From the NCBI GenBank assembly GCA_016124575.1, contig WGNM01000008.1, positions 1 to 64,000 of the forward strand: DNA of 64,000 nt. The letters are read 5' to 3'. The notes under the pieces were generated by a model, which had not been told where the DNA came from, made no database searches, and saw nothing but the letters and a program-made list of their open reading frames with translations. Origin of the DNA: Cryomorphaceae bacterium. Lineage in GTDB: Bacteria; Bacteroidota; Bacteroidia; Flavobacteriales_D; Sanyastnellaceae. The translations under genes and the position numbers were made by a program. Position 1 is the first letter of the stretch; each line of letters starts with the position of its first letter. Positions 24,528 through 28,470 of this stretch are shown here, piece by piece.

Positions 24528-25697
24528 CTAGTACAATGCTACACTTTCGTCAATCTCCTTTGCCCATGCCAAAATTCCTCCCTTCAAATTGTACAAATTG
24601 TCGTACCCATATTTTTCTTCAAGCTCGCGAATGGCTTTCGCACTGCGAACGCCGCTGCGGCAATGGACAACCACTTTTCTATCTTTTTGGATTTTGTGTG
24701 CAAACTCCGATACCGATTTCAAAGGAATCAACTCGCCTTCGATTTGGGCTATGGCGAATTCGTAGGGTTCGCGGACGTCAATGAGTTGAAACGGTTCGCC
24801 ACTCTCTTTCAATTGAGCGAGGGTGTGGACGTCTATTTCTTTGATAGCCTTTTCTACTGTCGCTGCTGTGGTATCGATACCGCAAAACTGCACGTAGTCA
24901 ATCAACCCTGTTTGTGTTGGGTGCTCACCATTTAGTGGGTTCGACTTGTCTTTGTGGACTTTCAAGGTCCGTGTTTCAAACGATGCTGCATCAAACAAAA
25001 ACAACCTTCCGTTCAATGGCTCTCCAACTCCGCTAATTACTTTGATTACTTCGTTTGCCTGCAGTGATCCCAATATCCCGGGCAACACGCCAATCACACC
25101 GCCTTCGGCACAACTTGGCACCAATCCCGGTGGTGGCGGTGAAGGAAACAAATCTCTGTAGTTCGGCCCACGTGTGCCGTCAGCATTCAAATAGTTAAAC
25201 ACGGATGCCTGTCCCTCAAACCGATATATGGATGCATAAACATTCACTTTGTCGAGCAAAACACACGCGTCATTCACCAAATATCGGGTGGCAAAATTAT
25301 CGGTGCCGTCGGCAACCACATCATAATCTTTAATGATATCGAGGGCGTTGTCTGATGTCAACTTGATGTTATGCACGATCACGTCAATATACGGATTCAA
25401 GGCTTTTATGCGCTTCGCTGCCGACTCTGCTTTGGGCTGTCCGACATCGTCGATGGTGAACAAAACCTGGCGTTGTAAGTTCGAGTTGTCGACGGTGTCA
25501 AAATCTACTATGCCAATGGTGCCTACGCCGGCAGCCGCGAGGTACAGCAACACCGGACTACCCAGTCCGCCAGATCCGATCACCAAGACTTTGCTTTCCT
25601 TCAACCGTTTTTGTCCTTCAATATTGAATTCAGGAATGATGAGATGTCGGGAGTAACGCTCCAATTCTTCTCTACTAAATGTCGTTTGCGCCTTCAT
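24528..25697 (-). CDS. MoeZ-like adenylyltransferase/sulfurtransferase (ThiF/MoeB fold plus rhodanese)
   Basis: This 389-residue protein has an E1-like adenylating domain (residues about 10-250, VLVIGSGGLGSPVLLYLAAAGVG; catalytic-loop region PPPGLVPSCAEGGVIG) and a C-terminal rhodanese domain (about 290-389) with active-site Cys in VHCRSGVRSA. In Mycobacterium, MoeZ adenylates the C terminus of the sulfur carrier CysO and converts it to a thiocarboxylate; the same role is inferred here because cysO lies 5 bp upstream. I see no paired CxxC zinc motifs, consistent with the MoeZ type. The longest frame starts at a TTG (25706) overlapping the cysO stop; the ATG at 25697 is preferred. It is the last gene of the sulfur operon. 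Confidence 0.88.
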   Translation of the reverse strand: MKAQTTFSREELERYSRHLIIPEFNIEGQKRLKESKVLVIGSGGLGSPVLLYLAAAGVGTIGIVDFDTVDNSNLQRQVLFTIDDVGQPKAESAAKRIKALNPYIDVIVHNIKLTSDNALDIIKDYDVVADGTDNFATRYLVNDACVLLDKVNVYASIYRFEGQASVFNYLNADGTRGPNYRDLFPSPPPPGLVPSCAEGGVIGVLPGILGSLQANEVIKVISGVGEPLNGRLFLFDAASFETRTLKVHKDKSNPLNGEHPTQTGLIDYVQFCGIDTTAATVEKAIKEIDVHTLAQLKESGEPFQLIDVREPYEFAIAQIEGELIPLKSVSEFAHKIQKDRKVVVHCRSGVRSAKAIRELEEKYGYDNLYNLKGGILAWAKEIDESVALY

Positions 25698-25702
25698 GTC
25701 TA

Positions 25703-25981
25703 TCAAATTGATCCGCCCGCAATGGCCGGAATGATCGAAATTACTGTATTGCTTTCAACAGCAGTGTTCTCTTTTTCAAGCTGCTGAATATCTTCATCGC
25801 CGACGTATATTCTGACGAAAGATCGAATATCGCCTTTGTCGTCGAGAAGATGATGACGCAAGCCGTCGTGTTGTGAGATCAAATCTCCAATAACGTCTTT
25901 TACTGTCGATTTACTGCTTTCAAAATGTGCGCTATCATTGGTGAATTTGCGCAGAGGGGTGGGGATTATGAGCTTTGCCAT
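25703..25981 (-). CDS. CysO/ThiS/MoaD-family sulfur carrier protein with a C-terminal Ser-Ile extension
   Basis: This is a 92-residue ubiquitin-fold sulfur carrier. The region RSFVRIYVGDEDI and the end SIIPAIAGGSI closely resemble mycobacterial CysO, which ends directly in Gly-Gly. Here two residues, Ser-Ile, follow the Gly-Gly. For adenylation the carrier must end in Gly-Gly, so these residues are predicted to be removed, most simply by the JAMM peptidase encoded 20 bp upstream. A known parallel is QbsE/QbsD of Pseudomonas thioquinolobactin synthesis, where a JAMM enzyme trims a C-terminal dipeptide. The thiocarboxylate would then serve as sulfur donor to the CysM-like synthase. Confidence 0.88.
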   Translation of the reverse strand: MAKLIIPTPLRKFTNDSAHFESSKSTVKDVIGDLISQHDGLRHHLLDDKGDIRSFVRIYVGDEDIQQLEKENTAVESNTVISIIPAIAGGSI

Positions 25982-26001: not shown

Positions 26002-26445
26002 TTAGATTCTTCTTATTTCTTGTGATGTGCCTGTCAGCACTGTTTCTCTTTCAAATTGGTGAGCATCGTTCAACTGCCATGAGTTAACGTCTACCACATA
26101 TTCTGCATTCACCGATAGTATGACGTAGCTAAACCAAGGCATGGCTGCAAGGCGGTCGTGCTCAGATGGGATGGCAGGGTGCAGTGGATGCGAGTGGTAT
26201 ATCCCCAGTAAGGTGAGGTCATGCTCCAATGCGTACCTCTCGGCTTTCATATAGTCGGTTGGTGATATTTGAAATCTCCGACGTTGATCGCCGTCTTTGC
26301 TGTTCTTTACTGGGGTAACATGCGTAACCACGCGTTCTTCGTTGCCGCTTCCAAAGAAGAAGCCGCAACATTCATTTGGGAAATCTTTCAATGCGTGATT
26401 CCGCATGATGAGTTCGTTCTTGGGGTCAATGATCAATGTAGACAT
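26002..26445 (-). CDS. JAMM/MPN metalloprotease (Mec-like)
   Basis: This is a 147-residue single-domain zinc protease. The JAMM signature is complete: Glu in PNECCGFFFG near residue 25 and the metal-binding HSHPLHPAIPSEHD near 84-97. In Mycobacterium, Mec hydrolyses the CysO-cysteine adduct to release cysteine. Here it may also remove the Ser-Ile tail of the neighbouring carrier. It sits between cysM (1-bp gap upstream) and cysO (20-bp gap downstream), which fixes the functional context. Length and motifs look normal for the family. Confidence 0.9.
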   Translation of the reverse strand: MSTLIIDPKNELIMRNHALKDFPNECCGFFFGSGNEERVVTHVTPVKNSKDGDQRRRFQISPTDYMKAERYALEHDLTLLGIYHSHPLHPAIPSEHDRLAAMPWFSYVILSVNAEYVVDVNSWQLNDAHQFERETVLTGTSQEIRRI

Positions 26446-26446
26446 G

Positions 26447-27382
26447 TTACAGGTTTAGGTGTTTAAGTACTTCGCTATATTTCGATGCGTCGTCGGCAAA
26501 AATGGTTACTATGGTGCCTTCTTCTATTTCGTTTGCCAACTTCAACGCCCCTGCGAGATTTGCTGCCGAAGAGGGCGATAGTAGCAGTTGTTCATGCACG
26601 GCTGCATCAACTATGGTTTGGTAGGCTTCTTCGGTTGTAACGGTGCGATTTTCATGCGCTACGCTGTCGTCGTAAATGCTTGGTACTTTGGCGGTGTCCA
26701 GATGTTTCCAGCCTTCCATGCCGTGCAATGCTGAATCTGGTTGCAAACTAATTAGCTGTATATCGGCATTCAATTCTCGCAATTTCCTGCCTGTGCCAGT
26801 AAAGGTTCCGGTGGTTCCCAAGCCCGATATGAAGTGGGTGACTTGCTGGTAGGTCTGTCGCCAAATCTCTTCAGCCGTGCCTTCGTAATGTGCTTTCCAA
26901 TTGGCATCGTTGGCATATTGGTCGGCGTAAAAATATTTGTCAGGATGTGCAATACTCAGTTCCTTTGCCATGGCTTGTGCTCCGTCGGTTGATTCAAACG
27001 GACTGGTGGGAATAACGTTGACGCCCAAATTTTTAAGTATCGTTTTGCGCTCTTTGCTGGCATTGTCGGGCAGACAAAGCGTAACAGGAATACCTGACAC
27101 AGCAGCAAACACGGCATATGCAATGCCTGTGTTGCCACTGCTTGCATCCAACAATCCGCGCTCTTGGGTAATTTCGCCATTGCGAATGGCATCGCGCATG
27201 ATGTTATAGGCTGGCCGTGCTTTCACCGAACCTCCCAGTTGCATCCATTCTAGCTTGGCATAAATAGCAACTTTCGGGTTCTTGTTGAGATTTCGGATTT
27301 TATACAAGGGTGTATTGCCTACGTAGTGCTCCAATTCTATGAAGCGCTGCTGCATGGTAGATGTTGGAATTGTCAGGTTCAT
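26447..27382 (-). CDS. cysM: CysM-like PLP-dependent cysteine synthase
   Basis: This is a fold-type II PLP enzyme of 311 residues. The PLP lysine lies in GGSVKARPAYNIM, the substrate loop is DASSGNTGIAYAV, the phosphate-binding loop is SGLGTTGTFTGTGR, and the end has LLSPSSAANLAGAL. Its place next to CysO, JAMM and MoeZ-like genes suggests it uses CysO-thiocarboxylate as sulfur donor (O-phosphoserine-type CysM), not free sulfide, but the acceptor substrate cannot be proved from sequence. It is preceded by the peroxiredoxin gene (48 bp) and followed by the JAMM gene (1 bp). Confidence 0.87.
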   Translation of the reverse strand: MNLTIPTSTMQQRFIELEHYVGNTPLYKIRNLNKNPKVAIYAKLEWMQLGGSVKARPAYNIMRDAIRNGEITQERGLLDASSGNTGIAYAVFAAVSGIPVTLCLPDNASKERKTILKNLGVNVIPTSPFESTDGAQAMAKELSIAHPDKYFYADQYANDANWKAHYEGTAEEIWRQTYQQVTHFISGLGTTGTFTGTGRKLRELNADIQLISLQPDSALHGMEGWKHLDTAKVPSIYDDSVAHENRTVTTEEAYQTIVDAAVHEQLLLSPSSAANLAGALKLANEIEEGTIVTIFADDASKYSEVLKHLNL

Positions 27383-27430: not shown

Positions 27431-28084
27431 TTAATTCAGGTCTTTCTTAAGCAAGTAGAAGTCGGTTTGTTCGTAGCCCTTTCCATCGTGCTGTCCTACT
27501 TCTGCAAGGGTCTTTGGCGGTGGCACAACTACTTTCTCTCCAGGCTCCCAGTTCACAGGTAAAGCAACGCTGTGCTTGTCTGATGTCTGCAACGCGGTCA
27601 ACAATCGTTTGATCTCTTCTACGTTTCGTCCAACGTTCAAAGGGTAGTAAATAATCGCACGCACTGTTCCTTTTGGGTCAATCACAAATACGGCCCGCAC
27701 TGCTGCTGTTGTGCTTTCTCCTGGATGAAGCAGTCCGTATTTCTGCGCAACGGCGGTATCTAAATCTGCAATGATTGGGAAATCAAGCAACACGCCTGTG
27801 TTTTGCTTCACGTTCTGCACCCAGGCGAGGTGAGCATGTATGCTGTCAATGCTTACGCCTATCAGTTTTGTATTCCTAGCGGCAAAGTATTCTTTGTTTT
27901 TGGCAAATTCCACGAGCTCTGTGGTGCATACAGGTGTGAAATCTGCAGGGTGAGCGAAGAATATCACCCAGCTGTCTTTGTTAAACTCACTAAACGTGAG
28001 CGGTCCGGTGGTTGTCGCTGCAACGAAGTCAGGCGCTTTATCGCCAATTCGAGGCAGACTGTTGGTGTTGGTTTGATCAGACAT
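27431..28084 (-). CDS. 1-Cys peroxiredoxin (Prx6-type)
   Basis: This 217-residue thiol peroxidase has the catalytic motif AHPADFTPVCTTELVEF (peroxidatic Cys near residue 53). That is its only cysteine, so it is a 1-Cys enzyme needing an external reductant. The long C-terminal extension (ALPVNWEPGEKVVVPPP and onwards) is typical of Prx6. It reduces peroxides in the cytoplasm. It is the first gene after the two poly-Cys leaders and lies 48 bp before cysM, so peroxide defence and protected cysteine synthesis are probably co-expressed. Only 26 bases separate its ATG from the second attenuator terminator. Confidence 0.92.
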   Translation of the reverse strand: MSDQTNTNSLPRIGDKAPDFVAATTTGPLTFSEFNKDSWVIFFAHPADFTPVCTTELVEFAKNKEYFAARNTKLIGVSIDSIHAHLAWVQNVKQNTGVLLDFPIIADLDTAVAQKYGLLHPGESTTAAVRAVFVIDPKGTVRAIIYYPLNVGRNVEEIKRLLTALQTSDKHSVALPVNWEPGEKVVVPPPKTLAEVGQHDGKGYEQTDFYLLKKDLN

Positions 28085-28110
28085 TTTATATGTGTATTAA
28101 AAATTGTTGC

Positions 28111-28152
28111 AAAAAAAAAAAGGGCCCTATCTCACGAGGAGAAGGACCCTTT
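28111..28152 (-). terminator. Attenuator terminator 2
   Basis: Read on the minus strand, AAAGGGTCC (28152-28144) pairs with GGGCCCTTT (28127-28119) with one G-U wobble, and an inner TCTC/GAGA stem extends it. A run of 11 Ts follows on the RNA-like strand (As at 28111-28121). It stands between leader 2 and the peroxiredoxin gene. The segment GTCCTTCTC (28147-28139) can instead pair with GAGAGGAC inside the leader ORF (28188-28181) with one bulged base, which would block the terminator. Confidence 0.88.
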
Positions 28153-28170
28153 AATTCCATTTTTCAGGCA

Positions 28171-28263
28171 TTAACAGACAGTCCTCTCTAGCGGAAGAGC
28201 ACAACAACAACAACAACATGCTGCATTGTGAAAAACTGTCTTGTTAGTAACCTGATGTGACAT
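28171..28263 (-). CDS. Poly-cysteine leader peptide 2
   Basis: This is a 30-residue ORF: ATG at 28263, then SHQVTNKTVFHNAA, six consecutive TGT Cys codons (28218-28201), then ALPLERTVC and TAA. A seventh Cys codon directly precedes the stop. It ends 19 bases before the terminator stem. The layout matches classical amino-acid attenuation. With scarce Cys-tRNA the ribosome would stall on the Cys run, freeing GAGAGGAC to pair with the terminator arm. With ample Cys-tRNA it would proceed and the terminator would form. It has no promoter of its own between the first terminator and its ATG. Confidence 0.85.
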   Translation of the reverse strand: MSHQVTNKTVFHNAACCCCCCALPLERTVC

Positions 28264-28281
28264 TAACCAAAATATTAAACC

Positions 28282-28315
28282 AAAAAAAACACCCTCCCGA
28301 ATTTCGGAAGGGTGT
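28282..28315 (-). terminator. Attenuator terminator 1
   Basis: A 13-bp stem with one wobble (minus-strand ACACCCTTCCGAA at 28315-28303, TTCGGGAGGGTGT at 28301-28289) is followed by eight Ts (As at 28282-28289). The 5' arm contains CTTCCGA (28310-28304), which is exactly complementary to TCGGAAG (28345-28339) just after the stop codon of leader 1. Confidence 0.9.
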
Positions 28316-28345
28316 GATATTTTATACATATACACGTTCTTCCGA

Positions 28346-28396
28346 CTACCTTCTGGTAGAGCAGCAACAACATGTAAATGTGAATGTATTCTTCAT
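28346..28396 (-). CDS. Poly-cysteine leader peptide 1
   Basis: This is a 16-residue ORF, MKNTFTFTCCCCSTRR, with ATG at 28396 and TAG at 28348-28346. Four adjacent Cys codons (TGT TGT TGC TGC) are followed within four codons by the stop. A CTACC/GGTAG hairpin (28346-28359) covers the end of the ORF. The seven bases directly after the stop (TCGGAAG) form the proposed antiterminator with the arm of terminator 1. A ribosome at the stop would mask them; a ribosome stalled at the Cys codons would leave them free. Confidence 0.85.
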   Translation of the reverse strand: MKNTFTFTCCCCSTRR

Positions 28397-28403
28397 CGTT
28401 GGG

Positions 28404-28434
28404 CGAAATTAAGAAACAATTTTCGAATTTCCAA
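28404..28434 (-). promoter_or_regulatory. Candidate promoter for the cysteine-attenuated operon
   Basis: On the minus strand, TTG (28434-28432) is followed after 20 bases by TAATTTCG (28411-28404), seven of eight matches to the Bacteroidota TAnnTTTG box with normal spacing. A start site about 5-7 bases downstream would lie at or almost at the ATG of leader 1, so the transcript may be leaderless or nearly so. Confidence 0.5.
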
Positions 28435-28470
28435 ATTTTATAGAAATATTTCAAATGAGGATGGTGGGAT

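Follow-up and report, generated by a model that had tools for sequence, protein, structure and literature searches.

Two predicted cysteine attenuators in series upstream of a peroxiredoxin-cysM operon in Bacteroidota

The leader region of a peroxiredoxin-cysM-JAMM-cysO-moeZ operon in a Cryomorphaceae bacterium very probably contains two ribosome-mediated, cysteine-sensing transcription attenuators placed in series on one transcript. The locus lies in a 64,000-nucleotide stretch of contig WGNM01000008.1 (assembly GCA_016124575.1), hereafter the window, and the operon, judged by its gene content, makes cysteine. Read from the rodA end, the order is promoter, leader 1, terminator 1, leader 2, terminator 2 and then the five genes (Table 1). 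Each leader is a short open reading frame with a run of codons for cysteine, the product of the operon, and each unit has, downstream of its Cys run and ahead of its terminator, a strand complementary to the terminator 5' arm. All results were computed from sequence, and what they show is the anatomy, its conservation, the promoter placement and the fit of the antiterminators.

Table 1. Features of the leader region and operon, in window coordinates.
Feature	Position	Strand	Remarks
Promoter, Bacteroidota-type, TTTG-N20-TAATTTCG	28404..28435	-	consensus match; RNA start expected at or just before ATG1
Leader peptide 1, MKNTFTFTCCCCSTRR	28346..28396	-	ATG 28396, stop 28346; kept in relatives
Antiterminator strand 1 (predicted), TCGGAAG	28339..28345	-	directly 3' of the leader 1 stop
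Terminator 1, predicted intrinsic	28279..28315	-	hairpin 28315-28289, dG about -20, then U-run
Leader peptide 2, MSHQVTNKTVFHNAACCCCCCALPLERTVC (...AACCCCCCALPLERTVC)	28171..28263	-	ATG 28263, stop 28171; internal start
Antiterminator strand 2 (predicted), GAGAGGAC	28181..28188	-	pairs with GTCCTTCTC at 28147-28139, one bulge
Terminator 2, predicted intrinsic	28109..28152	-	hairpin 28152-28119, dG about -18.5, then U-run
Peroxiredoxin (prx)	27431..28084	-	Pfam AhpC-TSA, 1-cysPrx_C
CysM-type cysteine synthase (cysM)	26447..27382	-	Pfam PALP
JAMM/Prok-JAB peptidase	26002..26445	-	Pfam
CysO-like ThiS-family sulfur carrier	25703..25981	-	Pfam; C-terminal ...AGGSI
MoeZ-like protein, ThiF + rhodanese	24528..25706	-	Pfam

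We propose the following mechanism. RNA synthesis would start at or just before ATG1, and leader 1 would be translated leaderless or nearly so. When Cys-tRNA is ample, the ribosome would proceed to the stop codon and hide the antiterminator, such that terminator 1 forms and the transcript ends near 28282. When Cys-tRNA is scarce, the ribosome would stall on the Cys codons and the strand ~25 nt downstream would pair with the 5' arm of terminator 1, letting polymerase continue past it. Leader 2 would then be translated from an internal start and an equivalent decision taken at terminator 2, with prx-cysM-JAMM-cysO-moeZ being transcribed only when both gates are open. Were ribosome stalling and premature termination to occur independently at the two gates, a steeper response and a lower basal level would be expected, and readthrough at the two might multiply, as the initial annotation proposed.

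The paired layout is shared by relatives of the window. Orthologues of cysM were gathered from 60 relatives, from named genomes and from 114 genomes of the window's family, and a unit was defined as a short ATG open reading frame in which some stretch of five codons includes three or more for Cys, with a hairpin and U-run behind it; the terminator thresholds were chosen in this analysis and some of the within-family counts depend on them. The initial annotation had proposed a search of relatives for paired poly-Cys reading frames upstream of prx or cysM, and this search yielded 19 further loci, giving 20 with paired units and none with triple units. Ten of the 19 belong to the window's family (L004, L005, L006, L007, L008, L011, L012, L013, L015 and L160; L037 is a duplicate record of L011) and nine to Saprospiraceae/Lewinellaceae (L033, L035, L036, L039, L046, L051, L079, L087 and L092); the loci are not phylogenetically independent. 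At L039 the second leader and hairpin were found with terminator 2 under the U-run cut; this locus was counted by hand among the pairs and is omitted wherever unit 2 is measured. Examples of leader 1 from relatives are MKNTFTYTCCCC and MNTNFTFTCCC. Within the family, cysM was present in 34 genomes and its upstream sequence was readable in 31, where a pair was found in 11 (7 genera, window included), a single unit in 18 and none in 2 by the cuts used, one of the latter (G036) retaining a poly-Cys leader.

Several further observations were made during this survey. Two hairpins with U-runs and one leader passing the cut were found at each of L070 and L078, making them possible extra pairs, with the hairpins of L078 sitting ~1.1 kb upstream of cysM. 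Candidates for a single poly-Cys leader plus terminator precede cysM at L086, L090, L105, L110 and L112; one of these genomes belongs to Ignavibacteria and the rest to Acidobacteriota, three of them within Pyrinomonadaceae or close to it. The gate and cysM are separated by prx only in the window, L004, L008, L012 and L160; the remaining family loci that were examined have the gate directly upstream of cysM. Genome size in the family is 2.8-4.6 Mb where there is a pair and 1.7-2.9 Mb where there is a single unit, kinship being ignored in this comparison.

The placement of promoters argues for a single transcript. Promoters of Bacteroidota follow the consensus TTG, an 18-22 nt spacer and TAnnTTTG, and matches were scored allowing at most one mismatch in TTTG, with expectations taken from shuffled sequences. 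Of the 20 paired loci, 17 have a promoter whose end lies 4-17 nt ahead of ATG1 (0.3 expected), whereas one was found before leader 2 in 1 of 19 (0.5 expected). The window contains just one match between 28700 and 27300, at 28435-28404 upstream of leader 1. Spacing between hairpin 1 and ATG2 is 25 nt in the window, and a scan of this gap returned no promoter match. Of the 19 pairs measured, 15 have a gap of 15-46 nt, and L008, L036, L051 and L079 one of 57-88 nt. Promoters lying before leader 1 but not leader 2 favour serial gating over two transcripts, and any transcripts reading through from rodA would likewise face both terminators. Moreover, the short distance from the -7 element to ATG1 (7 nt in the window) suggests that leader 1 is leaderless or nearly so; on this sequence evidence it is probably leaderless. 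In the window, the reading frame of leader 2 extends without a stop back across terminator 1 as far as an ATG at 28329. This alternative start was rejected because most relatives' leader 2 has no counterpart to it.

Each unit has a predicted antiterminator that fits its own terminator. The antiterminator strand begins ~25 nt past the first Cys codon; for 72 of 89 units, where 21 would be expected, its start lies between 19 and 34 nt past that codon, immediately downstream of where a ribosome stalled on the Cys run is predicted to sit. Compared with dinucleotide shuffles, the antiterminator duplexes of the 89 units had a median z of -2.4, with p<0.05 in 57%. Preference for the unit's own terminator ranked in the best tenth for 39 of 83 units (8.3 expected), and own pairing exceeded swapped pairing in strength in 14 of the 18 tandems, the exceptions being L004, L013, L036 and L160. 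In the window, own pairs reached -25.7 and swapped pairs -13.3. Antiterminator 1 pairs there with CTTCCGA at 28310-28304 (duplex -14.1, z -3.2); the duplex of antiterminator 2 (-13.0) showed no clear excess over shuffles (p 0.085).

Equilibrium folding with a model ribosome was used to compare the two states of each unit. The ribosome was masked either at the second Cys codon (stalled) or at the stop codon with an assumed footprint, the downstream edge being set at 12 nt, a value from general knowledge. Across the 89 units the mean fraction of terminator 5' arm sequestered was 0.60 when stalled and 0.31 at the stop, with the stalled value being higher in 75. When only the RNA downstream of the ribosome was folded the values were 0.65 and 0.19, with stalling higher in 87 of 89, a difference that arises partly by construction because more RNA is removed in the stop state. 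Unit 1 of the window behaved alike in both foldings, at 0.86 stalled against 0.24 (0.29 downstream-only) at the stop. For unit 2, downstream-only folding gave ~0.8 stalled and 0.21 at the stop, while inclusion of the upstream RNA gave 0.22 and 0.31, opposite to the expected direction, and we attribute this flat response to a competing helix. Thus the modelled switch, with readthrough upon stalling at Cys codons and termination upon arrival at the stop, is clear for window unit 1 and less so for unit 2.

The weaker behaviour of unit 2 in the window, both in its duplex and when upstream RNA is folded in, is what might be seen if one gate regulated while the other terminated constitutively or had decayed, and 18 family genomes manage with a single unit. 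We consider this unlikely, as both units of the tandems retain Cys runs, a terminator and an antiterminator that matches it. Far less probable is that two transcripts arise, through RNA processing or an internal start between the units, with gates acting in parallel: the longer gaps of L008, L036, L051 and L079 offer enough room, and L035 has one weak promoter match between its units, but promoters at leader 2 occur at 1 of 19 loci against 0.5 expected and the window gap is short.

It could also be argued that the Cys-rich peptides themselves act, through metal, redox or peptide sensing, with the terminators being incidental, for which the presence of a peroxiredoxin gene in the operon (window, L004, L008, L012 and L160) speaks. 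Against this, the leaders differ widely beyond their Cys run, whereas the distance from antiterminator to Cys codons is kept, and we regard peptide action as very improbable. The serial double gate put forward in the initial annotation is therefore the reading that we retain, given the conserved layout, the promoters found only ahead of leader 1 and the own-fitting antiterminator of each unit.

The two leaders differ in their Cys content. On average leader 1 has 4.1 Cys and leader 2 has 5.7 (19 pairs), with leader 2 having more in 14, an equal number in 4 and fewer in 1 (Wilcoxon p 0.0009, kinship ignored). The larger count in leader 2 agrees with the two gates having different thresholds, as far as codon numbers can indicate. 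Codons TGT and TGC are mixed in 23 of 37 Cys runs, which speaks against a simple microsatellite.

The origin of the pair was also considered. It had been suggested that the TF/TVF-x-CCCC layout common to the window leaders reflects a tandem duplication, but beyond the Cys run the window units resemble one another no more than shuffled sequence does (z 0.2), and neither the duplication nor the shared layout as a sign of it is borne out there. Clear duplication was found elsewhere: when the Cys run is disregarded, unit 1 still strongly resembles unit 2 in L036 (z 17.7) and L046 (z 13.2), and does so to a moderate degree in L051 and L087. Strong likeness in L036 and L046 together with none in the window suggests recurrent tandem duplication, such that the duplication in the window's lineage may be old or the pair may have arisen there independently. 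In a quick CysM tree, in which gain and loss of the pair are indistinguishable, the paired state requires at least eight changes, and four of these are imposed by branches with good support. The pair seems to have had several origins.

Runs of Cys codons are not in themselves unusual in this genome. The pattern TGYTGYTGYTGY, four TGY codons in a row, matched 64 times compared with 59 for the reversed control, and since this is no enrichment the case is carried by the reading frames, terminators, antiterminators and conservation. A survey of the window's own genome, built on pattern matches only, identified at other TGY4 sites six short ATG reading frames with such a run, five of them without a terminator candidate. 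The sixth (L129, G000:C27:856) encodes a Cys-rich product of 46 aa, MNDCCKCCNTKSCEPCSGCQCCCCCCQAYDTDTNRCDCDEDNTCAM, which looks like a small Cys-rich protein. It is followed 88 nt past its stop by a hairpin (dG -13.1) with an imperfect U-run (tail TCTTTTATCC), and by judgement it was not counted as an attenuator. Uniqueness of the locus in its genome thus partly rests on this exclusion. Two TGY4 runs 125-155 nt apart, a pattern that misses Cys runs of three, matched in 28 of 395 genomes of the phylum; among the loci examined from this search, a leader-plus-terminator pair was found in the window only, and L224 contained a single weak candidate unit.

Taken together, the analysis leads us to a broader proposal, offered tentatively as one that we would not yet call probable: that double attenuators reading one amino acid twice, in which gate 1 is leaderless and gate 2 is internally started and richer in Cys codons, have arisen repeatedly in Bacteroidota as modules that steepen the cysteine response and lower basal expression. 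If true, the locus would represent a naturally occurring cascade in which two RNA switches share one input; the steepening by serial gating would be directly measurable there, and relatives with a single unit would be natural controls. It would also combine a leaderless and an internally started reading frame in one regulatory RNA. Predicted cysteine attenuation is extended by this work to Bacteroidota and, through candidates with one unit, to one Ignavibacteria genome and some Acidobacteriota.

Leader-peptide attenuation is a classical mechanism of the E. coli trp type. As in trp, the window has short leaders with codons for the operon's own amino acid and a predicted antiterminator and intrinsic terminator that are mutually exclusive; it differs from trp in its cysteine codons, its two full units in series and a leader 1 that is probably leaderless. 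No Rfam family reached its gathering threshold in the window leader region; Phe_leader (RF01859) was rejected for unit 1 (28284-28397; 35 bits with 55 needed, E 0.0018). Transcriptomics of F. psychrophilum mentions leader-peptide attenuation before amino-acid operons in general terms (PMC9723704). The initial annotation knew of no described tandem Cys attenuator in this phylum, and our literature search, in which subscription papers were thinly covered, likewise found neither a Bacteroidota cysteine attenuator nor same-amino-acid attenuators in series.

In mycobacteria, leaderless poly-Cys reading frames are reported to be cysteine-responsive attenuators (Canestrari et al. 2020, as related in PMC9031893), and candidates have been listed (PMC4633059). 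The likeness to the window lies in a poly-Cys reading frame, here probably leaderless, before sulfur genes and in cysteine-dependent attenuation, predicted here. In PMC9031893 the mycobacterial frames are described as acting on translation of the downstream genes, unlike the window with its predicted intrinsic terminators and two units. The Salmonella mgtCBR leader has the tandem attenuators mgtM and mgtP, which act independently, sense ATP and proline and are without recognisable intrinsic terminators (PMC3641672). By sequence, the window likewise has two short reading frames in series in one leader but, in contrast to the two signals of mgtCBR, both carry Cys runs and each has its own predicted terminator. 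B. clausii metE has tandem SAM and B12 riboswitches and so, like the window, two serial transcription-termination switches; unlike the window, as described in PMC3641672, the RNA binds metabolites directly, responds to two signals and involves no leader peptides. There are precedents for attenuation, for poly-Cys leaders and for attenuators in tandem, and two attenuators for the same amino acid in series would appear to be the new element.
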